41,257 nucleotides of DNA from Bacillus sp. ISL-41 (GTDB lineage Bacteria; Bacillota; Bacilli; Bacillales; Cytobacillaceae). Shown here in pieces: positions 11,609 to 29,228 of the stretch; position 1 is the stretch's first letter, and each line of letters begins with the position of its first letter. The notes below the pieces were generated by a model. That model was given only the letters and a program-made list of their open reading frames with translations, was not told the origin of the DNA and did not search any database. The DNA is taken from contig NZ_JAGGQP010000051.1 in assembly GCF_018613235.1 (NCBI RefSeq), positions 1-41,257 on the forward strand. Reading direction: 5' to 3'. Position numbers and translations under genes: made by a program.

Positions 11609-12628
11609 TTATCCGAAAAATCTTTGATAGATGCTCCGTGCCTGAGCCAGGTCCTTTGTTCCATGAATGAGAGCACGTCCATCCTGAAAAATAACCATCC
11701 TGTTGTCAACCATGTCTACGGATACCAGGTATGGATTTCCCTTAACCTGATAGCCTAAATCCCTCATTTTTTCAGCGGTTTCCTGCAGGTTAAGCTGCTG
11801 CTGTTTCGGCGGCCTGATTTGGACAGTATCGCGTCCGCATAGAACCGTCGTCTTAGTCATGTTCTCGCCGTTTAAATAAGGATATTCAGGGTGTTCTCCG
11901 CAGCTCAGGCAACCCGGGTCCTTCGCTTTGGACATTTTCATGCTGGTGTACTGGTTGCGCCATAAATCAAAGCTGACAAATGACGTCCGCACTGCGTCCC
12001 AATCTTCAACGAGGATTTTCAGCGCTTCCGCTCCCTGATGGGCAATGACCATCTGCACTGCAGGTCCGATAATGCCTCCTGTATCACATGTCATCCCCTG
12101 CAGCGGAACGGTTTTCAGCAAACAGTTCAGGCAGGGCGTTTTTCCGGGAATGATCGAAAAACTCATGCCGAAACTACCAACGCAGGCACCATAAATCCAG
12201 GGAATCTGGTGTTTTTGTGAAATATCGTTAATCGCCATCCGTGTTTCAAAATTATCCGTGGCATCAATGATCAGATCGACTCCATCTACAAGCTCGGCTA
12301 ATTTTCCAGGAGTAGCATCGGCGATATAGGCATTGATTTCTACATCAGAGTTGATTGCTCTGAGCCTTTTTTCCGCCGCCGCGGCCTTGGGAAGCTTCTC
12401 GGCAACATCTTCCTCTGTATATAATTGTTGACGCTGCAAGTTACTCGCTTCAACATAATCACGGTCCACGATCGTCAGTCGGCCAACACCTGCCCTGACC
12501 AGCAGCTCAGCATTGCCTGAACCGAGCGCCCCGGCACCAATCATCAGTACATGCTTGCTGCGGATTTTCTCCTGTCCGGCCTTGCCGATAGGAGGAAACA
12601 GCGTTTGACGTGAATATCTTTCTGACAT
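11609..12628 (-). CDS. moeB: MoaD/ThiS adenylyltransferase MoeB (ThiF family)
   Basis: MoeB adenylates the C-terminal Gly-Gly of MoaD so that it can be thiolated for molybdopterin synthesis. The 339-residue protein has an E1-like domain: GAGALGSGNAELL (about 32-44) for ATP, LQRQQLYTEEDV for the Arg finger region, DATDNFETR (about 124-132), and two zinc cysteine pairs, PCLNC (about 170) and CLSC (about 244). The last 75 residues are an extra small domain found in Bacillus MoeB/ThiF proteins. A Shine-Dalgarno AAGGAGGGG precedes the ATG. It is the last gene of the formate dehydrogenase-Moco cluster. ThiF-type activity on ThiS cannot be ruled out, but the neighbouring moaD supports MoeB. Confidence 0.9.
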   Translation of the reverse strand: MSERYSRQTLFPPIGKAGQEKIRSKHVLMIGAGALGSGNAELLVRAGVGRLTIVDRDYVEASNLQRQQLYTEEDVAEKLPKAAAAEKRLRAINSDVEINAYIADATPGKLAELVDGVDLIIDATDNFETRMAINDISQKHQIPWIYGACVGSFGMSFSIIPGKTPCLNCLLKTVPLQGMTCDTGGIIGPAVQMVIAHQGAEALKILVEDWDAVRTSFVSFDLWRNQYTSMKMSKAKDPGCLSCGEHPEYPYLNGENMTKTTVLCGRDTVQIRPPKQQQLNLQETAEKMRDLGYQVKGNPYLVSVDMVDNRMVIFQDGRALIHGTKDLAQARSIYQRFFG

Positions 12629-12711: not shown

Positions 12712-12945
12712 TCAACCGCCAGATACAGGCGGAATGAAGGCGATTGTATCTCCTTCTTTAATGATTTCATCATTGGATGAAAATTCTTCGTTGATTGCTG
12801 TCATGGAAGTATCGAGCTTCTGTACGCCGTACTTTTCAGCAACCATTTCTTTTAACTCAGCAACTGTTTTGCCAGCTGCTTCCATTTCCACTGATTCATG
12901 GCCTGCTTCGTCTCGCAGGTGGGCAAAAAATAATATTTTATTCAT
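12712..12945 (-). CDS. moaD: Molybdopterin synthase small subunit MoaD
   Basis: The 77-residue ubiquitin-like protein ends in the required Gly-Gly (PPVSGG), which is adenylated by MoeB and carries the thiocarboxylate sulfur to MoaE. The fold pattern ILFFAHLRDEAG ... VAELKEMVAEKYG ... DTIAFIPPVSGG is standard. The start overlaps the end of moaE by eight bases, so translation is likely coupled and gives the two synthase subunits together. Confidence 0.95.
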   Translation of the reverse strand: MNKILFFAHLRDEAGHESVEMEAAGKTVAELKEMVAEKYGVQKLDTSMTAINEEFSSNDEIIKEGDTIAFIPPVSGG

Positions 12946-13402
12946 TGAGATCCTTCTCCTCCGGTTTCCCTGTCGGATATGGGACAGTTTCTAGTTGATT
13001 GCCGATCCATTCCTCGCCATCTTCCCAATGCTCTTTTTTCCAGATTGGGACGATTTCCTTGATGCGCTCGATTGCATAGCGATTCGCTTCATAGGCATCG
13101 TTGCGGTGCGGCGTGGATACAGCGATCACGACAGCGATATCCGTGATGTCGAGCTTGCCGACGCGGTGCGTAATCGCAACCTCGGCCCCGTTCCAGCGCT
13201 CCTGGATTTCCGTGCCGATCTGCTCGAGCTTTTTCACTGCCATCGGCTCATATGCTTCATATATAAGGTAAAGGGTTTTTTTGCCCTTTGTCAATTCACG
13301 GACAGTGCCAATGAAAGTCGTGATAGCCCCGGCTTCACGCTGGACCACTTTATCAATGACAGATTGAACGTTGATTGGATCTTTCGCTATTTCATAATTC
13401 AT
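12938..13402 (-). CDS. moaE: Molybdopterin synthase catalytic subunit MoaE
   Basis: MoaE converts cyclic pyranopterin monophosphate to molybdopterin using sulfur from MoaD. Conserved segments are GAITTFIGTVRE (about 24-35), LIYEAYEPMA, THRVGKLDITDIAVVIAVSTPHR (positions about 78-100) and the lysine-containing IKEIVPIWKKEHWEDGEEWI, which carries the catalytic Lys residues. I place the start at the ATG at 13402 (MNYEIAKDP), six bases after GAGGTG; an upstream in-frame GTG overlaps that Shine-Dalgarno. A 52-bp-period array lies just upstream, between this gene and the moeA fusion. Confidence 0.93.
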   Translation of the reverse strand: MNYEIAKDPINVQSVIDKVVQREAGAITTFIGTVRELTKGKKTLYLIYEAYEPMAVKKLEQIGTEIQERWNGAEVAITHRVGKLDITDIAVVIAVSTPHRNDAYEANRYAIERIKEIVPIWKKEHWEDGEEWIGNQLETVPYPTGKPEEKDLNE

Positions 13403-13450
13403 CAAAATCACCTCAATAAACTGATCCGGATCAGGATTTTTTATTTTTTA

Positions 13451-13609: not shown

Positions 13610-15529
13610 CTAAAAATAAACCGGCTCTGGGTTCTCGACGACGGCATACCCGCCGATCTTGGCGACTTCGGCTCTGAAGGCTTCAGACTGGATCACGTTC
13701 CTTAACCAGATACCCTTTTCGCTTTCGAAAAATGCCTTTGTCATCAGTAAATCGTAGTTTTCATCAGAGACCGGGATGAAGTCAAGACCCATTGCCCTGG
13801 CTGCCGGGAAGATTCCGAGGCCTGCTGCATTGTCATTTCCTTTTACTTCAGCGGCGACGCTCAGGTGCGAGAACATTTCACGGTCGTAGCCGTTTACATC
13901 GTCTGCACTCAAACCTGCTTCTTTTAACAATAAATCAAACAATATGCGTGTGCCGGCGCCCTTTTGCCTGTTGGCATAATCTATGCCCTTTTCGGCAATG
14001 TCGCTGACGTTCTGTATTCCAAACGGGTTGCCTTTTGGAAGCAGCCACCCCTGGGTTCTTTTTAAAAATGGATAAAGGACTGCGTCTTGACCCGCAAGAA
14101 ACTTCCTTACGTAAGTAACATTATATTCCTTTGTCTCCGGGTCCAGCAAATGAATGCCCGCTACATGGGCTTCCCCTTTTCTGATTGCCATTAAACCGGC
14201 CATGCTGCCAACATGGGAAGAAACAATTTTCATGTCGGTACGCTGCTTCTTGAGCTGGGAGGACAGAAGGTCAATCGTCAAATCATGACTGCCGCTGAAG
14301 ACGATCGCGTTCTTGATCTCTTCGACAGGCCTGTACAGCTCGACCTCGACATTGTCTCCTTGTTCATATCCCAGCTCCTCAGGCGGTACGACGAGCAAAC
14401 CGTCCGCACGCACAAGCGACATGGTGACGCCCGCTGCGCGTGTCAGCGGATTGGCGACAAATTGTCCATCCACATAGCCGATATTCATTCGGACAAAGTC
14501 CTCAGCCCCCATCGTGGAGACGATCCTGCGGCCAAGCTTTACCTTGAGCTTTGGCCTTTCTGGTTCTGGTACACCTAGATATTTACAAACGAGCGGCCTT
14601 ACAAACCACTCAAGTGACATGTACGCAGAAACTGGATAGCCCGGTACACCGACGACTACCTTATCTTTAATTTTCCCGAGAATGACTGGCTTACCCGGCC
14701 TTGTTGCGACTCCATGGGTAAAAACAGTCCCAAGCTCCTCAAGAATATGGACTGTATAATCTTTTGATCCAGCGGATGATCCGGCATTGATGACGACGAT
14801 ATCCGATGTCTCCACCGCATTCAGGAGTGCTTCCCTGATTTTTTCCGGCTCATCCTTCACGATTGGGTGCAAATACGGGTTGCCGCCCCAATCTTCTACA
14901 TAATTGCTGAAAACTGTTCCATTGAATTCAATAATCCTGCCTGATGTAAGTGATGCGTCTGCACTGACAAGCTCATTTCCCGTCGGGATGATGGTCACCA
15001 GCGGCTTTTTGACGACGGCTACCTCGGTGATCTGGGCTGCAAGAAGCGCCCCAAGATCCGCAGGCCGCAGTCGATGTCCCTGTGTGAACAGCATTTCCTC
15101 CTGGACGATATCCTCGCCGATCGGGCGGATATGCTGCCATGGTGTTGCGGGCTCGATGATTTCAATCGTCTCCTCATCGATGACCTGGATGTTCTCCACC
15201 ATGATCACGGCATTATATTGAGGCGGAATCGCATTACCGGTATCAACGTATACAAATTGCTCGCCTTTTTTCAAATGAAGAGGGCGCTGTTCATGCGCTT
15301 CATATGTATCCTCTGCATTCACGGCAACGCCGTCCATCGCGGATGCATGGTAAAAAGGCATCGAGACATTGGCGAAAACAGGTTCAGCAGTTATCCGTCC
15401 AAGTGCAGAGGCAGCCGGGATCCACTCTTTTTCCTGAGGCAGGTCGAACGCGGCCAGCACTTCATTCCTGGCTTGTGCTCTCGGCTTGTCTTCAAGATAA
15501 ATTTTTCGATTATAGCGTATTTTATCCAT
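13610..15529 (-). CDS. MoeA-type molybdopterin molybdotransferase fused to a periplasmic-binding-protein-like domain
   Basis: The 639-residue protein has two parts. Residues about 1-405 are a full MoeA-like domain: PFYHASAMDGVAV (about 58-70), TGNAIPPQYNAVIMVE, the MPT-binding INAGSSAGSKDYT (about 252-264) and VVGVPGYPVSAYMSLEW (about 299-315). Residues about 415-635 are a PBP-like (PF12727-type) domain: AIVFSGSHDLTIDLLSSQL, AHVAGIHLLDPETKEYN, and a final FRAEVAKIGGYAV. Such fusions occur in Bacilli and archaea, and the second domain is thought to sense or bind molybdate or a cofactor-related ligand; that role is inferred. It lies 13 bases downstream of the single-domain moeA, so the cell makes two MoeA forms from one transcript. 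Confidence 0.9.
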   Translation of the reverse strand: MDKIRYNRKIYLEDKPRAQARNEVLAAFDLPQEKEWIPAASALGRITAEPVFANVSMPFYHASAMDGVAVNAEDTYEAHEQRPLHLKKGEQFVYVDTGNAIPPQYNAVIMVENIQVIDEETIEIIEPATPWQHIRPIGEDIVQEEMLFTQGHRLRPADLGALLAAQITEVAVVKKPLVTIIPTGNELVSADASLTSGRIIEFNGTVFSNYVEDWGGNPYLHPIVKDEPEKIREALLNAVETSDIVVINAGSSAGSKDYTVHILEELGTVFTHGVATRPGKPVILGKIKDKVVVGVPGYPVSAYMSLEWFVRPLVCKYLGVPEPERPKLKVKLGRRIVSTMGAEDFVRMNIGYVDGQFVANPLTRAAGVTMSLVRADGLLVVPPEELGYEQGDNVEVELYRPVEEIKNAIVFSGSHDLTIDLLSSQLKKQRTDMKIVSSHVGSMAGLMAIRKGEAHVAGIHLLDPETKEYNVTYVRKFLAGQDAVLYPFLKRTQGWLLPKGNPFGIQNVSDIAEKGIDYANRQKGAGTRILFDLLLKEAGLSADDVNGYDREMFSHLSVAAEVKGNDNAAGLGIFPAARAMGLDFIPVSDENYDLLMTKAFFESEKGIWLRNVIQSEAFRAEVAKIGGYAVVENPEPVYF

Positions 15530-15542
15530 GGTGCGGCTCCCC

Positions 15543-16775
15543 CTATCTTGTCAAAATGACTGGAACGTATTCGCCTTGAAAAATTCCTTCTTTTTCGGAT
15601 ACAATCTCGACGATTCCATCGCTTTTTACCAATGTCGTAATCAGGCCTGACTTGCCGATGATCGGCTCTGCCCACCATTCTCCATCCTTTTCCTCAAGTC
15701 TTACTCTGATGTAATCGGATCTTCCTGGTGAAGAGGCAATGTTTTTTACAATCCGGGCAAAAATTCGTTCAGGCTTATGCTCGATTTTCTCGCCCTTCAG
15801 CCTTCTGAAAACCCTTTCGCCAAACAGCTTAAAAATGATCATCGCAGATGCTGGATGACCCGGCAGTCCGATGACGGGCTTTCCGTCCGCAACAGCGAGG
15901 ATTGTCGGCTTCCCAGGCTTGATTGAAATTCCGTGGACAAAGACGCCCGGATCTCCAAGAGACTGGATGACTTCGGTTGTATAGTCCTTCGCGCCGACTG
16001 AGCTTCCGCCGGATAAAATCAGGCAGTCAGCCTGTTCATACAATTCGCGGGCTTTCTGGGCAAACTCATCATAGTCATCGCGTGTGATTCCGCCATAAAT
16101 GAGATCGATATCCCACTCATTGACCAGGCCCTTTACGGTCAAGTAATTGATGTCGCGGATTTGGCCTGTTTCAAGTGTTTTTGTTTCAAAAGGAACGATT
16201 TCGTCCCCTGAAGAAAGGTACGCAGCCTTCAGCTTTCGGTAGACTTTCACCTCAGAAATACCAAGTGCCGCCAGTGCTCCAAGCTCCTGCGGCCGCAATC
16301 TTGTCCCTTCGGATAACAGGACTTCGCCTTCCTTGATGTCCTCGCCTTTCCTGATGACATTCTCACCCGGTGCGATTTGCTTATACGTATTCAACAGCCC
16401 GCCAATTTCCTCGCAGTGTTCGATCATCAGTACGCTGTCACTGCCTGGTGGCAGCATTCCGCCTGTCGGTACGTAAATAGCCTCGCCCCTGCCTACCGGC
16501 TTTACCGCTTCCTCGCCCATATGGACTTCGCCGGCTACATTCAAGAAGCCTGGCATCGATTCAGATGAACCATATGTGTCACGGGCGATGACGGCATAGC
16601 CATCGACGGTGGAGCGGTCAAAACCAGGTACATTCTCGCCCGCAGTGATATCCTCTGCCAGGATGTAGTGAAGCGCCTCATCCAGCGGACGGATTTCGGT
16701 TTCCGTGATCTTGCCGATTTTCTCATCAATTAACGCAAAGGTCTCCTCAACACTTTTCACTTTGAAAAATTGCAT
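15543..16775 (-). CDS. moeA: Molybdopterin molybdotransferase MoeA
   Basis: MoeA inserts molybdate (or tungstate) into adenylated molybdopterin. The 410-residue protein has normal MoeA length and motifs: PGFDRSTVDGYAV (about 51-63), VPTGGMLPPGSDSVLMIE (about 106-123), LRPQELGALAALGI (about 165-178), ILSGGSSVGAKDYT (about 245-258) and PVIGLPGHPASAMIIF (about 294-309). Domain order is complete. It follows mobA by about 31 bases and is followed closely by the moeA fusion. Confidence 0.95.
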   Translation of the reverse strand: MQFFKVKSVEETFALIDEKIGKITETEIRPLDEALHYILAEDITAGENVPGFDRSTVDGYAVIARDTYGSSESMPGFLNVAGEVHMGEEAVKPVGRGEAIYVPTGGMLPPGSDSVLMIEHCEEIGGLLNTYKQIAPGENVIRKGEDIKEGEVLLSEGTRLRPQELGALAALGISEVKVYRKLKAAYLSSGDEIVPFETKTLETGQIRDINYLTVKGLVNEWDIDLIYGGITRDDYDEFAQKARELYEQADCLILSGGSSVGAKDYTTEVIQSLGDPGVFVHGISIKPGKPTILAVADGKPVIGLPGHPASAMIIFKLFGERVFRRLKGEKIEHKPERIFARIVKNIASSPGRSDYIRVRLEEKDGEWWAEPIIGKSGLITTLVKSDGIVEIVSEKEGIFQGEYVPVILTR

Positions 16776-16806: not shown

Positions 16807-17406
16807 CTATTGTCCGGACTCCGCCCATTTTCTTGCATTTTCATACTCTTCTGGATGATTCATATTGAAAAAGACTCGATCAAGGCTGCCCTCGAAATAA
16901 AGCTGCAGATCTGCCTCATCGAGGAAACGGACATTCAGCTTTTCAAGCATGTGCCTGATCCTCAAGTTTCCGTCTTCAATGCAGGACTTAGCCTCTCGCG
17001 CGATCCGTTTCTGGTATGCGGCAAAAAGCGGATGCTGACGGCCATGACTTACCGGCACGACCGCATCGTGGTGCTTAAGCGCTTTTACAAGGCTTGAGGC
17101 AAGCTCAGCGGATACAAATGGCATATCACAGGCTACAACGAAATTTTCCTCATAGTCTGATGCCTCAAGCCCTGCATGGATTCCCGCGAGCGGTCCGGAA
17201 CCCGGATACTGGTCTGTTACAATTTTTATATTTAAAAACTGATAGGTTTCAGGATCATTCGTTACTAGAATTATATCATCAAATACGTGCTGTAACTCAT
17301 CCTTAATTCTTTCAATATTCGTTTTTTCATGAAATTTCAGGAGAGCCTTATTCGTTCCCATCCTGCTAGATTTGCCGCCTGATAAAATGATCGCTCCGGC
17401 TTTCAT
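16807..17406 (-). CDS. mobA: Molybdenum cofactor guanylyltransferase MobA
   Basis: MobA attaches GMP to Mo-molybdopterin, giving the bis-MGD cofactor that DMSO-reductase-family enzymes such as FdhA need. The 199-residue protein opens MKAGAIILSGGKSSRMGTNK, the nucleotide-binding LxGGxSxRMGxxK motif, and has GPLAGIHAGLEAS (about 66-78) and VVACDMPFVSAEL (about 87-99). I use the ATG at 17406, seven bases after AAGGTG; the longer frame overlaps fdhE and lacks homology. Its position just before moeA and after fdhE links cofactor maturation to the enzyme. Confidence 0.93.
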   Translation of the reverse strand: MKAGAIILSGGKSSRMGTNKALLKFHEKTNIERIKDELQHVFDDIILVTNDPETYQFLNIKIVTDQYPGSGPLAGIHAGLEASDYEENFVVACDMPFVSAELASSLVKALKHHDAVVPVSHGRQHPLFAAYQKRIAREAKSCIEDGNLRIRHMLEKLNVRFLDEADLQLYFEGSLDRVFFNMNHPEEYENARKWAESGQ

Positions 17407-17422
17407 CCCACAGCACCTTCTT

Positions 17423-18232
17423 TTAGTTTGTCTGTTTTGTTTCTCCAGCAGATTTATACCCATTCTCCTGGGCAACAAAGTCCAGGTGGATAGTGTTCAG
17501 GTCAAGCATTGCTGGTGTTGGCTTTACGATATATTGTCTTGTATCGATTACTTTAGTATACCCTTGGCATTCTTCACAAATCTGGATTTGCGCGGCTGAT
17601 TCGCCTTCAATCGTCAGTACTTTCACTGTTTCATGATCGTTATTTCCGCAATGTGAGCAAGCTGTGCGGCGGTCATTCCAGTGCGCCGAACAACGCGGAC
17701 AGTGCAGTACTTTCTTCCCTTCTCCTTCTAGCTGTGCAAGGCGTACAGGTTCGCCACATACAGGGCAGCCAGCGCCGTGTACACCGTGATGGATTTCACC
17801 CTGGACCTTGGCAGCAGTCAGCTGAAGGTATGGACGGAGCACCGTTTCTGCCATAAATTGTGGAATCCAGCCATCCAGCCCATTTTCCTCAGCAAAACTC
17901 GCAAAGTAAATATAGTTAAAAGCAAATGCTTCATCGATCCATCTCTTAGCTGTCTCTTCATCCATCAGACTTTTAATAATCTGCATCGAACTTTCTATCT
18001 CTGGTTGATACTTCGATAAAAGCCCACCTATATCCTCTATCCACTGTAAGAATAGGGAAATATCAAAGTCAATAGCCGCTAACGCAGTGACAGGCACTCC
18101 TGCCTCCATCGCCGCTTTATCAATCTTTGGACGGACACAGTCAGGATCCAGGGATGTCTTCCATTGTTCCTGCAATTCGATGATATCCTTCTGCAATTTC
18201 TGATACTCTTTTGAGACAACGGACTTTTTCAT
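17423..18232 (-). CDS. fdhE: Formate dehydrogenase accessory protein FdhE
   Basis: The 269-residue protein is an FdhE homologue, needed in E. coli for maturation of respiratory formate dehydrogenases and thought to bind the catalytic subunit. The C-terminal half has four CxxC-type knuckles, GCPVCGEPV, HCPRCSAHW, ACSHCGNND and ICEECQGY (about residues 170-245), which would coordinate iron or zinc in rubredoxin-like sites. The N-terminal half is helical. It lies between the cytochrome b gene and mobA; a stem-loop precedes it in the mRNA. Confidence 0.88.
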   Translation of the reverse strand: MKKSVVSKEYQKLQKDIIELQEQWKTSLDPDCVRPKIDKAAMEAGVPVTALAAIDFDISLFLQWIEDIGGLLSKYQPEIESSMQIIKSLMDEETAKRWIDEAFAFNYIYFASFAEENGLDGWIPQFMAETVLRPYLQLTAAKVQGEIHHGVHGAGCPVCGEPVRLAQLEGEGKKVLHCPRCSAHWNDRRTACSHCGNNDHETVKVLTIEGESAAQIQICEECQGYTKVIDTRQYIVKPTPAMLDLNTIHLDFVAQENGYKSAGETKQTN

Positions 18233-18317: not shown

Positions 18318-19025
18318 TTACGCGCCTTTTTTCTTGTTCTTGTTTTTATCAAGGTCAGGGAAATTGCCCTTCTTGACTTCTTCTTCATACCATTCTGTAT
18401 AGTGATCCTTCGCCCACTCAGCAGGAACCTCACCTGTAATGACTCCAGTGTATCCCGGTCTTGAGTTTTTGTGGATGACACTCAGATAGATATGGCCGAC
18501 CACTACCGCTATTGCCAGACCGAAGCCAACATTATGGGCAACATACGCCCACTGGACGATTGCTTTCGGAAACAGGTCCGGGAACCACATTGGGAAGCCG
18601 GAACCGATGATCAGGATCGCGGTCAGGATCTGGATGATGGAGTTGATTTTTTCACCAGCGTTAAAGAATGTTTGTTTTACATGCTTGAACTTAAAGCCGA
18701 ATAGTTCTTTGACGAACTCAGTGAAAAACTGTATATCTCTTTTTTTCCAAGTAACAAGCTCTTTTCCCCAGCGCAGGAAGCCTTTAGGATCCATGATCAG
18801 CCAGATGAAAGTCGGCGTGATGAAGGTAATCGCGAAAATCCTGTGGAGCAGGCGCGCTCCTTCTGGTCCGCCTAATACTGGATAAAGCCAGTCAAACCAC
18901 TCTGTATACATTGGCAGGGCCGTGATATACAATGCAAAGAATGAAAGGGCGTTCACAGCATGCGCGATAACAAAACCTTTCGAGAAACGCTTAACCTTCA
19001 CACCTGAATACTGCGTATTACTCAT
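18318..19025 (-). CDS. Formate dehydrogenase cytochrome b556 (gamma) subunit
   Basis: This 235-residue membrane protein passes electrons from FdhB to the quinone pool. It has four predicted membrane helices (about 17-37, 57-77, 115-140 and 155-180) with conserved histidines in FVIAHAVNALSF, LLHRIFAI, VAHNVGFG and VGHIYLSV that fit the two b haems of FdnI/FdoI. The C-terminus is a soluble Lys/Asp-rich tail. The start chosen is the ATG at 19025 behind GGAGGTGG; it overlaps the end of fdhB by eight bases (ATGAGTAA), which implies translational coupling. Confidence 0.92.
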   Translation of the reverse strand: MSNTQYSGVKVKRFSKGFVIAHAVNALSFFALYITALPMYTEWFDWLYPVLGGPEGARLLHRIFAITFITPTFIWLIMDPKGFLRWGKELVTWKKRDIQFFTEFVKELFGFKFKHVKQTFFNAGEKINSIIQILTAILIIGSGFPMWFPDLFPKAIVQWAYVAHNVGFGLAIAVVVGHIYLSVIHKNSRPGYTGVITGEVPAEWAKDHYTEWYEEEVKKGNFPDLDKNKNKKKGA

Positions 19026-19845
19026 GGCTGCCACCTCCATCCTCTTCATGGCCTTTGCCTTCTTTATTGAATAGCTTATTGGATACGAATGCCCCTACAA
19101 GCGCCATGCTTGTCGCTCCAAGCATCATCTTGCCGATTGGCTGTGCGTAATCCTTCCAGACAACTGCTGATGTTGGAACTTTTGGTTTTTCAGGAAGTCC
19201 ATAGACAGATGGTTTTTCAGCAAGTACGTAAACCGTATGCGTACCGCCGACTCCTTCTGGGTTGTAAATCATTGCGTTCGGATACTTATCCTTGATTTCG
19301 CTCAGGCGCTTTTCAGCCTTCTTAAGCATTTCTTCTTGTGTGCCAAATTCCATTGCATCTGTGTGGCAAGTTGTCACACAAGCAGGCTGCATGCCTTCTT
19401 CAAGACGATCGACACACATTGTGCATTTCTGTGCCTTCTTGTATTCCTTGCCGTTCTTGTCTTTGTATGTCGCCAACTGGACAACATCGAATGGGCAGTT
19501 CTGCACGCAGTAGCCGCAGCCTACGCATTTGTCCGTATTGACATCCACTGTTCCGAAATCTGTGTAGTGCATGGCTTCTTCAGGGCAAACCTTAACGCAA
19601 GCCGCTTCCGAGCAATGGAAGCATGAAGAATGGCGGAAAAGGTAGTCCAGATTGCCTTTTGAATCTTCGTGTTCAATAAATGACAGGACGTTCCATGTGT
19701 TTGCTGTTACCTTTGCATGAGACTGGACGCTGCCCTGGAACTCTTCCGGTTCAGCCGGAAGATCGTTCCAGTTTTTGCAGGCGACCATACATGCGCGGCA
19801 GCCGTCACACTTGGTTACATCGACGTATTTAATATAGTCCGCCAT
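19018..19845 (-). CDS. Formate dehydrogenase iron-sulfur (beta) subunit
   Basis: This 275-residue ferredoxin-like subunit wires FdhA to the cytochrome. It has cysteine groups for four [4Fe-4S] clusters: CDGCRACMVAC (about 14-24), CFHCSEAACVKVCP (about 76-89), CVGCGYCVQNCP (about 107-118) and CTMCVDRLEEGMQPACVTTC (about 141-160). Near residues 240-260 one membrane helix (MMLGATSMALVGAFVSNKLF) anchors it, as in FdnH/FdoH. The start overlaps the fdhA stop by one base (TAATG). The tail after the helix is short and acidic. Confidence 0.94.
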   Translation of the reverse strand: MADYIKYVDVTKCDGCRACMVACKNWNDLPAEPEEFQGSVQSHAKVTANTWNVLSFIEHEDSKGNLDYLFRHSSCFHCSEAACVKVCPEEAMHYTDFGTVDVNTDKCVGCGYCVQNCPFDVVQLATYKDKNGKEYKKAQKCTMCVDRLEEGMQPACVTTCHTDAMEFGTQEEMLKKAEKRLSEIKDKYPNAMIYNPEGVGGTHTVYVLAEKPSVYGLPEKPKVPTSAVVWKDYAQPIGKMMLGATSMALVGAFVSNKLFNKEGKGHEEDGGGSHE

Positions 19846-22829
19846 TAGTCAGCCCTCCTTATATCACAGAGGAATGCCTTATATTCAGGAATGGTCGTAT
19901 TCGCATCCCCGATATGAGGTGTCAAGCGGTTTGCTGTATCCCCTGTTGCGATTCCTTTATAGCCAAAGTGCCAAGGCATGCCGACCTGATGCACCTTCTT
20001 GCCGTTCATCATATGAGGCTTGAAGCGCTTGGTAACCATTGCATAGGCTGTGATATCACCACGGGCCGAGCTGACAATGATCTTATCTTTGTTCTTGATG
20101 CCTTTTTCCTTTGCGAGTTCTTCACTCATTTCAATATACATATGGCCTGACAATTCGGACAGCCATTCCTGGTTCCGTGTCATCGAACCAGACTGCCAGT
20201 GCTCAGATACCCTGTAAGTCGTACCGACGATCGGGTACTTCTTGCTGTCGCCTTTCAGGTTGAACTCACCCTCGATGATGACAACAGCCGGGTTGATCTC
20301 CTGGCTTGAGAAGGTATTTTTCACCGGACTTTCAAACGGCTCGTAATGTTCAGGGAACGGTCCGTCATTCAGCGTAGGTGCGAAGACTCCCGCTACACCG
20401 CCGTTAATCATGATGAATGGATTCGTTCCGCCTGGATCAGCTGGTGCAACTGTTGGCTTGAAATCAGGAATGTCATTTCCAGTCCACTTCTTCTGGCTTT
20501 CATCCCACCAGATGACCGCTTTTTTGTCGCTCCAAGGCTTTCCGCTTGGATCAGCAGATGCACGGTTGTAAAGGATTCGGCGGTTTGCAGGCCATGCAAA
20601 TGCCCAGTTCAGGAAGTTCCCGCCGCCAGTATCCTTATTGTCACGGTTTTTAGCGCGGTTCTTGCCTTCCTCTGGATAGAAGCCTGAATAAATCCAGTTA
20701 CCAGAGCTTGTTGTACCGTCATCTTTAAGGTCGCCAAAGCCTTTCAATAATTTTCCTGTCGTCAGGTCATAGCCGTTGATTTCTTTTGCTACAAGGTCGA
20801 TATCCGGATGGTGGCCATCACCATAATTCCAGTACAGCGCATTGACCTGCTTGGCTGCAGCTGAACTTTCATTTTTGTAAAGGGCTTTGATATTTTTGAC
20901 CAGCATGTGGATGATTTCCAAGTCAGCCAAGGATTCTCCTTTTGGATCAATCGCCTTCCAGCGGTATTGCATCCAGCGTGAAGAGTTAGACACACTGCCC
21001 TCTTTCTCATAAGAGCTTGCTGCCGGCAGAAGGAACACTTCTGTATCGATCTTCGATGGGTCGCTGCCCGCTTCTTCTTGCCAGAAAGCAGATGTCTCGG
21101 TTTCCCAAAGGTCAACCGCTACCATCCATTTAAGATTGGACAGCGCTTCTTTTTCCTTGCCTGCATTCGGGCCGCCGACTACAGGGTTTGTTCCAAATAA
21201 GAACGCACCTTCCAGTTCGCCTTTATACATAGCGTTGAACAAGTTGATGTGAGAGTAATTCTTGTTTCCTTTTGGAAGGTACTGGTACCCAAATTCATTC
21301 GCTTTTGTCGCATTCGGGCCGTACCAGGCCTTCAGCATACTGACAAGGAACTTAGGTTTGTTGCTCCAGTAACCGCCAGAAGGTGTTTCCTTAGTGTTGT
21401 AACCTTCTAACGTTGCATGCTCAGGGATGGCAGTTGGAGTTCCAACATATCCTGGAAGCAGGTGGTATAGCAGGGCAAAGTCAGTAGATCCCTGTACATT
21501 GGACTCTCCGCGCATCGCGTTGATTCCGCCGCCAGGAAGACCGATATTACCAAGCAGCAATTGGATGATACCAAAAGCACGGACGTTCTGTGTTCCAACA
21601 GTATGTTGAGTTGTACCCATCGCATACATGATCGTTCCGGACTTCCCGATTTTGCTTGTTGAACAGAATGTCTCACAGACCTTCAGGTAATCTTCTTTTG
21701 GTGTTCCGGTTACTGCGATTACTGAATCGACATCATAGCGTGAGAAATGCTTTTTCATCAGCTGGAATACAGAGCGCGGATGTGTAAGGGTTTTATCCTT
21801 TTTCGGATTGCCTTCTTCGTCCGTTTCAAAAGCCCATTTCGTTTTGTCATACTTGCGGGTTGCTTCATCATACCCGCTGAACAATCCATCATTGAATTCA
21901 AAATCCTTCTTTACAATGAAGGATGCATTTGTATATTCAGCAACATACTCTCTGTGGATCAAGTTATTCTCTAACGCATAGTTGATCATTCCGCCCATGA
22001 AGGCAATATCTGTTCCTGAACGAAGCGAAGCATAGACGTCGGCCTTTGAAGATGTCCTCGTGAAACGAGGGTCAACAGAGACGATTTTGCCGCCTTTTTC
22101 TTTCGCTTTAGTCAACCATCTGAAAGAGATTGGGTGATTCTCGGCAGGATTCCCGCCCATGATCAATGCACAATCGGTATTTTGCAGATCGCTCCAATGG
22201 TTTGTCATTGCTCCACGCCCTACTGTAGGTGCCAGACCGGCAACCGTAGAACTGTGTCATATTCGTGCCTGGTGTTCGAGATAGACGACGCCAAGCCCTC
22301 TCATCATTTTCGCAAGCAGATAGGTCTCTTCATTATCAAGAGCTGCTCCGCCTAAGCTCGCAATGGCTTCGGTCTTATTGACAAACATGCCATTTTCTTT
22401 TTCAATGAATGTTTTGTCGCGTGTTTCCTTCGTACGTTTTGCAATTGTTTCATACATCCAGTCCCAGCTTTTCTCTTCCCACTTCTTGCTTCCAGGAGCT
22501 CGATATAATGGCTTTGTTAAGCGTTTTTCGGATGTGTAGACTTGTCTGATTGTTGTACCTTTACTGCAAAGTGTACCTTCGTTGACTGGGCTATCCGGAT
22601 CCCCTTCCGTATAAACCACAGTATTGTCCTTTGTGTGTACCAAGATTCCGCATCCTACGCCGCAGAATGCACAAATGGTTGGTGTAACAGTAGCTTTGGC
22701 AATCTTGAGTTCTTTTGATTTTGCGTGGACCTCTTTTTCGTTAAAGCCCAACTCGACAACCGCCAGGGTCGCCGCAGTGGCACCTGACAGCTTCAAAAAC
22801 TGCCGGCGATTCAGGTTGATTTCAACCAT
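19845..22829 (-). CDS. Selenocysteine-containing formate dehydrogenase catalytic (alpha) subunit
   Basis: The gene reads as one 994-residue protein if the in-frame TGA at 22259-22257 is decoded as selenocysteine (residue 191). Upstream and downstream parts share the frame and are separated only by this codon. Flanking residues, HQARI then UGA then HSSTVAGLAPTVGRGAM, are the exact catalytic motif of formate dehydrogenases, where Sec or Cys binds Mo. The N-terminus has a Tat signal (NRRQFLK, Arg8-Arg9) and a [4Fe-4S] site with Cys53, Cys56, Cys60 and Cys88. The C-terminal part has the molydopterin dinucleotide-binding domain (about 865-985). It is the bis-MGD enzyme that oxidises formate on the outer face of the membrane. 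Standard gene calling would split it into 190- and 787-residue pieces. A bacterial SECIS element follows the UGA. Confidence 0.93.
22219..22250 (-). promoter_or_regulatory. Bacterial SECIS element in fdhA
   Basis: Eleven bases after the UGA, the mRNA reads GGU-U-GCC-GGUCU-GGC-ACC: a six-pair stem with one bulged U and an apical loop that starts GGU. A lower stem CUAC/GUAG extends it. In E. coli fdhF the SelB-binding hairpin is GGU-U-GCA-GGUC-UGC-ACC, also 11 bases after its UGA. The bulged U and loop GU, the two features SelB recognises, are both kept, and the third-position changes keep the pairing (A-U to C-G). Confidence 0.88.
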
Positions 22830-22884: not shown

Positions 22885-23688
22885 TCAATTCAGTACTTGC
22901 TGGGCTTCCCCCCTTTCAAGTAAATCCTCAGAGGCAGCCGCCGGAGTTAGATCATCATTAATCCTCCTGGCAGATGTATAGACAGTCGCCATTTTCCCTC
23001 TCAAGTAGCCAACGACTTCAATGTTGAGGAAGCGGGCCAGCTGGATGGCCTGCTTTGTGGCCGCAGTGCGCGAGCCAATGACGGCAAAGCCAAATTTGGC
23101 AGCTTTTGAGAGCATTTCATATGAAACCCTTCCGGTCGTTAAAAGGACGAGCCGGTCGGGTTGCAAACGCTTTCGAATTGCGTGGCCAATAATCTTATCG
23201 ACAGCATTATGCCTGCCGATATCTTCCCGGACTTCAATGCTGCCATCCTCCAGGATGATACAGGCACCGTGCATGCCACCCGTTTCAAGGTATAACGGCG
23301 AATTTTGCGCAAATTCTGCGCGTTTTTTCAACAAATATGTCAGCGAATAGGTTTCATCGGAATTCACTTTATTGAACTTCTTAACGTCCGTCATCGAGAA
23401 GAAGGTCACTCCCCGTCCGCAGCCGGCAGTATAGTGCTTCTTTTTCGAGAACATCTGCTCAGGATCAAAGGAATTACATAATGCTACATCCAATGTGCCG
23501 GTCTTTTCGTTAAATTGGGCGCTGACAACATCCTCCGGCCCATCAATCAAACCTTCTGAAAAAAGGTAGCCATATACCCAGTCTTCCAAATCCTGATTTG
23601 TCAGCTGGAATACCGCAATCTCATACCCATTCAGCTTCAGGCTGATTGGATATTCTTCAGGACAGCCTTTCTTGATCATGTTCTTCAC
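22885..23688 (-). CDS. fdhD: Formate dehydrogenase accessory sulfurtransferase FdhD
   Basis: FdhD passes sulfur from a cysteine desulfurase to the bis-MGD cofactor, forming the terminal sulfido ligand without which formate dehydrogenase is inactive. The 267-residue protein has the family segments DWVYGYLFSEGLI (about 36-48), the cysteine loop TAGCGRGVTF (about 87-96), GGMHGACIILEDG (about 137-149), EDIGRHNAVDKIIG (about 155-168), LLTTGRVSYEM and GSRTAATKQAI. The catalytic loop has only one cysteine (CGRG) where E. coli has CGVC. It is the first gene of the minus-strand cluster; the promoter must lie in 23689-24100. Confidence 0.93.
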   Translation of the reverse strand: MKNMIKKGCPEEYPISLKLNGYEIAVFQLTNQDLEDWVYGYLFSEGLIDGPEDVVSAQFNEKTGTLDVALCNSFDPEQMFSKKKHYTAGCGRGVTFFSMTDVKKFNKVNSDETYSLTYLLKKRAEFAQNSPLYLETGGMHGACIILEDGSIEVREDIGRHNAVDKIIGHAIRKRLQPDRLVLLTTGRVSYEMLSKAAKFGFAVIGSRTAATKQAIQLARFLNIEVVGYLRGKMATVYTSARRINDDLTPAAASEDLLERGEAQQVLN

Positions 23689-28213: not shown

Positions 28214-29228
28214 AGCTTTAGTGATCAGGATCATCCGGCAGTTCCTAAGGGATAAAAGGACACTTGCAATGATGCTTGTCGCCCCGCTCCTGATCCTGAC
28301 GATGCTCCACCTTGTTTTTAACGGTGAAAACTATGTTCCAAAGGTCGGTTTTGTGGATGCTCCTGCTGTTGTAATGGAGAAGATGGACCTCGAGGATGCC
28401 ACAGTGAAAGAATATGACTCTGCAAAAATGGCAAAAGATGATGCTTTGGTACGAAAAATTGATGGGTATATCACCTTTAATGGCCCTATAATAGATAAAA
28501 TCGTTTTAGAAGGAAGCGACCCAACAGTTAATGGTTCGGTTATGAAATGGATCCAGCAAGCAACGAAGCCATTGACGTCATCACAGGGAAATCTGGCTGT
28601 CGATTATCTTCATGGCTCAGACGATATGGGACAGTTCGATTATTTCGGACCGGTTCTATTAGGGTTCTTCGCTTTCTTTTTCGTCTTTATCATTTCCGGG
28701 ATTTCTTTTTTACGGGAAAGAACTAGCGGTACACTGGAAAAATTACTTTCAAGCCCGATAAGGAAGTGGGAAATCGTCGTTGGCTATGTACTCGGATTTG
28801 GGCTTTTTACGATGCTGCAGGCGACCCTGATTGCCTGGTATGCCATCTATGTCCTCGGCATGCTGATGGAAGGATCCTTCATCTATGTATTATTGATTAC
28901 CTTAATGCTGTCAATGACAGCGCTGACGCTCGGTACACTTTTGTCCGCATTCGCAAACAATGAGTTCCAGATGATTCAGTTTATCCCGGTCATCATCGTA
29001 CCGCAGTTCTTCTTTTCCGGACTGATCAATCTCGATACGATTTCCGATTGGCTGAGCTGGCTCGGGCCAATTACGCCGCTCTATTATGCTGCCGAAGCAT
29101 TGCGTGATATTATGGTAAGAGGATACGGATGGGATGCCATCTACGGGAATATGCTGATGCTGGCCGGATTTTCAGCACTGTTCATCTTCCTTAATATTTT
29201 GGCATTGCGGAAACACCGCGCAGTTTGA
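28203..29228 (+). CDS. ABC-2 type transporter permease
   Basis: The 341-residue membrane protein has the ABC-2 layout: one N-terminal helix (about 18-37), a large outside loop (about 40-150), and five helices in the C-terminal part. The typical motif ISFLRERTSGTLEKLLSSPI (about 172-191) marks the coupling region, followed by VVGYVLGFGLFTMLQA, and FIPVIIVPQFFFSGLINLDT. I use the ATG at 28203 (MRIRALV), which overlaps the ATPase gene; the frame is open slightly upstream without a start that has a Shine-Dalgarno. It works with the preceding ATPase. Confidence 0.92.
   Translation: MRIRALVIRIIRQFLRDKRTLAMMLVAPLLILTMLHLVFNGENYVPKVGFVDAPAVVMEKMDLEDATVKEYDSAKMAKDDALVRKIDGYITFNGPIIDKIVLEGSDPTVNGSVMKWIQQATKPLTSSQGNLAVDYLHGSDDMGQFDYFGPVLLGFFAFFFVFIISGISFLRERTSGTLEKLLSSPIRKWEIVVGYVLGFGLFTMLQATLIAWYAIYVLGMLMEGSFIYVLLITLMLSMTALTLGTLLSAFANNEFQMIQFIPVIIVPQFFFSGLINLDTISDWLSWLGPITPLYYAAEALRDIMVRGYGWDAIYGNMLMLAGFSALFIFLNILALRKHRAV

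Follow-up and report, generated by a model that had tools for sequence, protein, structure and literature searches.

One survey (Peng et al. 2016; PMC5029168), in the parts consulted, ranks formate dehydrogenase alpha subunits (FdhA) and SelD first among bacterial selenoproteins in breadth of occurrence, and SelW-like proteins appear in the selenoprotein list of a 2006 survey, likewise consulted in part (PMC1794560). For all Bacillales, Table 2 of the 2006 survey gives three selenoproteins in three families, and the sections of Peng et al. that were consulted name Bacillales only for selenouridine. Elsewhere, two species of Aneurinibacillus are credited with a SelA-type enzyme (PMC7996765), and a review mentions a "SelB from Bacillus" tried in Escherichia coli (PMC8659212). 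The present analysis concerns fdhA on the 41,257-nt contig NZ_JAGGQP010000051.1 of Bacillus sp. ISL-41 (GCF_018613235.1; GTDB family Cytobacillaceae; genome of 4.6 Mb, completeness 99.98), the whole of which is hereafter called the window. The frame of this gene contains a UGA at codon 191, followed by a hairpin that resembles the selenocysteine insertion sequence (SECIS) of E. coli fdhF. From sequence comparisons it is nearly certain that fdhA is a functional selenoprotein gene, with UGA191 decoded as selenocysteine (Sec) through SelB and the downstream hairpin.

An in-frame UGA at the catalytic position of fdhA

The minus-strand frame from 22829 to 19845 translates into 994 residues, and the only stop before its end is the TGA of codon 191. 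The product scored 1302.4 bits against TIGR01553 over residues 6-991, exceeding the curated cut-off of 814.2, and contains the Pfam domains TAT_signal, Molybdop_Fe4S4, Molybdopterin and Molydop_binding. A twin-arginine translocation (Tat) signal was detected at residues 5-24 (PF10518, 25.8 bits; cut-off 22.7), and NRRQFLK is present in the sequence. Residue 191 aligns with the modified residue X of PDB entry 1h0h, in EHQARIXHSATVA, which is presumably Sec; FdhA also matched PDB chains named selenocysteine-containing formate dehydrogenase. The UGA is found at the catalytic Sec/Cys position, as expected of a selenoprotein decoded through SelB. A sequence-only reading of the window had proposed a frame interrupted once, by a TGA at the molybdenum-binding Sec/Cys codon, and 11 bases on an fdhF-like hairpin with a bulged U and a GGUCU loop; each of these elements was recovered.

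Among the 1751 TGAs of the window that are bounded on both sides, only two have at least 100 open codons per side, codon 191 and a TGA at 29226 (+). The latter was rejected as a second Sec codon: it is the stop between two open reading frames (ORFs), which resemble an ATP-binding cassette permease and a TetR-type regulator by eye only.

In the proposed mechanism, a ribosome on the fdhA mRNA would arrive at UGA191, where SelB with Sec-tRNA(Sec) would be held by the hairpin just 3' of the codon, and Sec would be inserted. Sec191 would serve as the molybdenum or tungsten ligand of a Tat-exported, membrane-anchored FdhABC complex. This complex is predicted to hand electrons from formate to the respiratory chain; SelB binding, Sec insertion, and the activity and its direction are all predictions from sequence.

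Selenocysteine machinery and further selenoprotein candidates

The sequence-only reading had made its claim depend on the presence of selA, selB, selC and selD, and the complete set was found in the same genome. SelA scored 479 bits (563 bits against TIGR00474), SelB 360 bits with a GTPase, a beta-barrel and two winged-helix domains, and SelD 400 bits, over the TIGR00476 cut-off. The tRNA-Sec gene (selC) scored 67.4 bits and has the anticodon UCA; none of 11 weaker matches exceeded the gathering score, and those scanned with ARAGORN sit among ordinary tRNA genes. In 14 control genomes the SelA profile matched only in E. coli and M. jannaschii, with no match in B. subtilis.

Beyond fdhA, at least four UGA-containing selenoprotein candidates were found, two formate dehydrogenases of the FdhF type, SelD and a SelW-like protein, each with a hairpin whose loop reads RGUYU. 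The selD gene lies beside selA and has its UGA at codon 18. Between the two is the gene for the SelW-like CXXU protein, with its UGA at codon 14; this ORF exceeded the cut-offs of TIGR02174 and PF10262. Across 31 selA loci, a selD covering the codon was found in 18 and a selW-like gene in 20, with TGA every time; at the remaining loci selD or the selW-like gene was not found within the fetched stretch. The hairpins of both genes have loops such as AGUUU and show paired changes, for example CCGCG/CGCGG to CUGCG/CGCAG.

One FdhF-type gene, on contig C5, encodes 686 aa (TIGR01591, 784 bits) with UGA137 followed by GUCGCC-GGUCU-GGCGAC, and TGA was present in 31 of 31 loci read for this type (31 of 141 match rows, hand count). 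The third formate dehydrogenase of the genome (G000 C39:75496-77529; L232 2485-4536) is 52% identical to the C5 protein, scored 792 bits against TIGR01591 and adjoins genes that by eye resemble fdhD and a major facilitator superfamily transporter. Its hairpin is GUCACC-GGUCU-GGUGAC. Relative to C5, both arms of the stem differ (A-to-T and A-to-V in the protein) and all pairs are kept; this is a single instance, but a telling one that would support selection on the RNA. When the genome was searched with a 17-nt model built on the common hairpin, 150 of 932 first-look candidates were scored and seven matches obtained, with exactly these five genes ranked first. The other two, both on C33, were rejected (TGAs 43 and 28 nt upstream, with only 30/23 and 11/26 open codons). 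Very probably, judging from these sequences, the same machinery decodes at least four more genes of the genome.

The alternative that survives best is that UGA191 is read without Sec machinery, by Trp or Cys suppression or by a general reassignment of UGA. No observation speaks for it, and it is very improbable: the genome has a complete set of dedicated genes, the UGA-bearing genes fall in families known for Sec and each has a SelB-type hairpin, and TGA also serves as an ordinary stop, for example at 29226-29228.

Conservation of the UGA codon

Homologues were searched in 193 genomes (species) of the window's GTDB family, and codon 191 was read in 70 of the family loci, of which the search supplied 30 and the other 40 were chosen by hand for diversity, with both Cys forms included. 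TGA was found in 68, and the other two have TGT or TGC. A second set of 80 named loci, 79 of them readable, has TGA in 76. Over the resulting 149 loci (some genomes are present in both sets) the codon is TGA in 144 and Cys in five. More broadly, a TGA is carried by 123 of 125 family match rows that cover residue 191 (hand count; the position of the TGA was determined only in the 70 loci above). Only four of 128 match rows lack a stop (hand count), namely two fragments that start past residue 191 and the two Cys forms.

The appearance of a frame split by one stop is that of a pseudogene, and the TGA could be taken for a TGC or TGT codon misread in sequencing or for a nonsense mutation, the more so as some loci do have Cys there and one relative appears to have a broken copy, with fdhA over two overlapping frames (G089 C1:4542231-4545213; L114). 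This alternative is even less probable than suppression. The same TGA recurs in the 144 loci (some genomes are counted twice), the frame remains open for 803 codons past it, and the hairpin codons described below are invariant among orthologues.

Codon 190 (22260-22262) is ATA in all 62 family orthologues, in 105 of 144 Sec loci and in none of the five Cys loci; it is possibly an upstream context element for recoding.

The Sec/Cys exchange that the sequence-only reading had suggested looking for at residue 191 does occur. Two full-length Cys homologues in the GTDB family are 68% identical to the window FdhA and have lost both stem and loop, with the corresponding region folding at about -2 kcal/mol, against -7.7 kcal/mol for the window hairpin. 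In a quick tree (78 rows, selected by rule among 150 loci; SH-aLRT (Shimodaira-Hasegawa-like approximate likelihood ratio test) supports only; midpoint root) the two family Cys sequences group in a single clade that lies within the Sec forms. Two assemblies encode FdhA with Cys as well as FdhA with Sec (L078 and L079 with L087 and L090; G184 and G006), of which G006 is 88% complete with 4% contamination.

The downstream hairpin

Eleven nucleotides past the UGA, the transcript reads G22245-G22244, a bulged U22243 (the first U of UU), UGCC, the loop GGUCU (22238-22234), GGCA and CC (22229-22228). The region matched Rfam SECIS_3 (RF01989) over its full length of 59 positions with 58 bits (E 4.6e-11 in the window, 1.2e-12 in the whole genome). 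In the whole-genome scan (150 of 585 first-look candidates scored) the only other match at E<=1 was a weak one (18 bits, E 0.6), which led to the formate dehydrogenase on C5. In one sequence alone the hairpin is only moderate evidence beyond chance, and its conservation is decisive.

For synonymous conservation, 62 Sec orthologues with an identity of 60% or more were compared, with 490 informative codons and 306 seven-codon windows. The 12 most conserved windows all start within codons 190-201. Codons 195-199 (ACG GTT GCC GGT CTG) are identical in all 62 sequences, and seven of the 13 invariant informative codons of fdhA fall in 187-199. Pairing was analyzed in 99 distinct Sec sequences, of which 75 have an RGUYU loop in register. 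All four apical pairs form in 74 of these 75, and pair types vary at three of the pairs (U-A, C-G or G-C at one position; C-G or U-A at another). What is found soon after the UGA is a conserved stem-loop with G-U in its loop and signs of selection at the RNA level, as expected of a SelB-decoded gene. The lower stem (CUAC/GUAG) is probably dispensable, because its letters have changed in many relatives.

Several observations weigh against reading the hairpin as a working SECIS element or UGA191 as a Sec codon. The SECIS_3 score lies below the Rfam gathering score of 63 bits, and the threshold for membership is not reached. The fold of the 41-nt element is no more stable than that of shuffled sequences (z -0.09; the apical part alone has z -1.58), and fold stability was rejected as proof of a SECIS. 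Of the 75 in-register sequences, 14 do not form one of the two outer pairs and 25 do not form the other, and one sequence (L142) retains only one of the four apical pairs. Among the 99 distinct Sec sequences, 24 lack an RGUYU loop in register; they come from 26 loci, all outside Bacillaceae. The ranking of five genes by the 17-nt model is partly by construction, as those genes or their relatives are in the model. Finally, recoding of E. coli fdhF is only 30-40% efficient according to the consulted part of PMC4513850, and a truncated FdhA product would therefore also be expected here.

Just as improbable as a broken gene is the suggestion that conservation of the peptide TVAGLAP produced the hairpin incidentally, without selection on the RNA: the four apical pairs do survive 14% of synonymous codon redraws (all six pairs and the loop, 0.5%), and the bulged U, being the second base of a Val codon, is fixed and by itself no evidence, but the synonymous sites of the hairpin are invariant in the 62 orthologues, the hairpin is gone in both family Cys homologues, and paralogue stems are kept despite other codons and even other amino acids.

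Two variants of the element were observed among more distant sequences. Many of the named loci without an in-register RGUYU loop (for example L144, L149, L166 and L186) carry GCTCTGGCAGAGTC instead. Five distant Sec paralogues within the family (L094-L097 and L113; 42-47% identity) all have the loop AGUUU in place of GGUCU.

Gene neighborhood

The features of the locus are collected in Table 1. The sequence-only reading had described a Tat-exported, three-subunit enzyme encoded next to its own molybdenum cofactor genes, and this description stands: fdhB and fdhC accompany the Tat-signal-bearing alpha subunit, and a mobA-like gene, two MoeA-type genes, moaE and a ThiF/MoeB family gene follow on the same strand. 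TIGR01582 and TIGR01583 are the best NCBIfam matches of FdhB and FdhC and yet remain under their curated cut-offs, so the two proteins appear to be divergent beta and gamma subunits. The two MoeA-type genes are adjacent, and the one at 13610-15529 is the long form. Among 41 of the 80 named loci, 18 from Bacillaceae and one labelled Chryseobacterium show the same gene order, fdhD-fdhA-B-C-E-mobA-moeA; in L139 the gene row ends before fdhD, where the sequence is cut.

Table 1 Features of the fdh locus in the window.
Feature	Position	Strand	Basis
ThiF/MoeB family protein	11609..12628	-	PF00899 over cut-off
moaE	12938..13411	-	PF02391 over cut-off
Second MoeA-type gene, long form, 639 aa	13610..15529	-	NF011068 724.3 bits, over cut-off
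moeA-like molybdotransferase	15543..16775	-	Best NF011068 and NF007960, both under cut-off
mobA-like nucleotidyltransferase	16807..17478	-	NTP_transf_3 over cut-off
fdhE-like accessory protein	17423..18232	-	FdhE_C 30.7 bits (cut-off 27); TIGR01562 49.4 bits, under cut-off
fdhC, membrane cytochrome b gamma subunit	18318..19049	-	TIGR01583 91.8 bits (cut-off 115.85, not reached); Ni_hydr_CYTB over cut-off
fdhB, Fe-S beta subunit	19018..19845	-	TIGR01582 230.6 bits (cut-off 334.7, not reached); Fer4_11 over cut-off
fdhA, formate dehydrogenase-N type alpha subunit	19845..22829	-	994 aa, predicted Sec191; TIGR01553, Pfam domains
SECIS region, Rfam RF01989 SECIS_3 match	22204..22262	-	58 bits
Lower stem CUAC/GUAG under apical hairpin	22220..22249	-	Fold
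Apical SECIS hairpin GGU-UGCC-GGUCU-GGCA-CC, predicted SelB-binding element	22228..22245	-	Sequence, fold, codon invariance, pair counts
UGA codon predicted to be read as Sec (residue 191)	22257..22259	-	Alignment to 1h0h; TGA in relatives
fdhD, formate dehydrogenase accessory sulfurtransferase	22885..23688	-	TIGR00129 165.6 bits and PF02634, both over cut-off

Distribution and ancestry

The expectation that Sec use is rare in Bacillaceae, raised by the sequence-only reading, did not hold. SelA matches were found in 182 of the 193 family genomes; ten of these are weak (E >1e-30), leaving 172 strong ones (hand count). SelD matched in 181 of the family genomes, and Sec-type formate dehydrogenases are also the rule in the GTDB family, with FdhA matches of the window type in 121 genomes and FdhF-type matches in 130, the latter with TGA in every row. 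SelW-like matches were found in 160, and among the matches listed one row (G032) is without TGA. In the order, SelA was above the cut-off in 181 of 397 sampled genomes (67 of 135 genera), 165 of them outside the window's family (hand count).

The best named relative of FdhA is that of Mesobacillus selenatarsenatis SF-1 (98%; NCBI family Bacillaceae; very near records were possibly excluded), and other named loci include Neobacillus, Cytobacillus and Evansella. The Bacillaceae FdhA orthologues formed one clade in the quick tree (SH-aLRT 100) beside other Bacillota, with a Chryseobacterium-labelled contig inside it and the five distant family paralogues outside. A gain of fdhA from Proteobacteria is not favored, because the Bacillaceae clade adjoins other Bacillota. 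Judged by these homologues, a Sec-decoded fdhA seems to be no oddity but common in a large group of Bacillus relatives from soil and sediment. On balance, though with clear reserve, it is proposed that Sec decoding is inherited and near-universal across a large spore-forming clade of Bacillaceae that includes Mesobacillus, Neobacillus, Cytobacillus and their kin, with several selenoproteins and one hairpin class in many genomes, and that residues flanking the active site in one formate dehydrogenase paralogue may have been shaped by the RNA stem.

The contig within the clade (L156, Chryseobacterium sp. ISL-80) is labelled Bacteroidota and bears the Bacillaceae fdh gene row; a wrong label or contamination is the probable reason. 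Identity to the window is 94-95% for its fdhB, fdhC and fdhD and only 80% for its FdhA, values that hint at an exchange of fdhA alone among Mesobacillus-like strains.

The kind of Sec system described here is already known, and its breadth in these Bacillaceae looks under-reported in the literature searched. Among the papers listed by a search of partial coverage, none joins M. selenatarsenatis to selenocysteine, or any of Neobacillus, Mesobacillus and Cytobacillus to selenoproteins, an absence that is weakly supported. With five candidates in one genome, against three for all Bacillales in the consulted part of the 2006 survey, the map of Sec use in Gram-positive bacteria shifts. The clade may provide convenient hosts for the study of Sec decoding, since PMC12016495, in the part consulted, describes M. 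selenatarsenatis as facultatively anaerobic and as using selenate and arsenate; natural Sec and Cys forms of FdhA also occur in one assembly (G006, G184). For gene calling, the warning is that a UGA in these genomes should not be read automatically as a stop.

Comparison with known systems

Insofar as the alpha subunit is concerned, relatives from other Bacillota (L133-L136, L141 and L142, from Carboxydothermus, Carboxydocella, Syntrophomonadaceae and a Firmicutes metagenome-assembled genome) are 53-61% identical to the window FdhA and have Sec. The core ACGGTTGCCGGTCTGGC is present in four of these six; five branch next to the Bacillaceae clade, and L142 was outside the tree set. In L133, L134, L135, L141 and L142, searched at E 1e-8 over the 4 kb that flank the gene on either side, neither fdhD nor mobA was matched, and the upstream stretch of L136 is too short to judge.

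The SelW-like protein (Rdx, CXXU) and Sec-SelD show no notable difference from the known ones, with the UGA in the CXXU motif of the former and in the N-terminal region of the latter, and both genes beside selA.

Among characterized enzymes, E. coli FdnGHI (TIGR01553; PDB 1kqf) is of the same type: the alpha subunit is over the cut-off and has a Tat signal, genes for the beta and gamma subunits follow, and 1kqf matches the window FdhA over nearly its full length. The window differs in beta and gamma subunits that score under their curated cut-offs and in a gene row that includes fdhD, fdhE, mobA and moeA.

For the hairpin the closest counterpart is the SECIS of E. coli fdhF, queried as a 42-mer that is present in 5368 of 5426 E. 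coli genomes and lies under fdhF in the three rows shown. The two elements share the 11-nt distance from the UGA, the bulged U, the GGUC(U) loop and a short GC-rich stem. In the window, an additional C-G pair extends the stem next to the loop, the lower stem differs, and the encoded protein is an FdhN-type enzyme bearing a Tat signal, in contrast to the FdhF type of E. coli formate dehydrogenase H.

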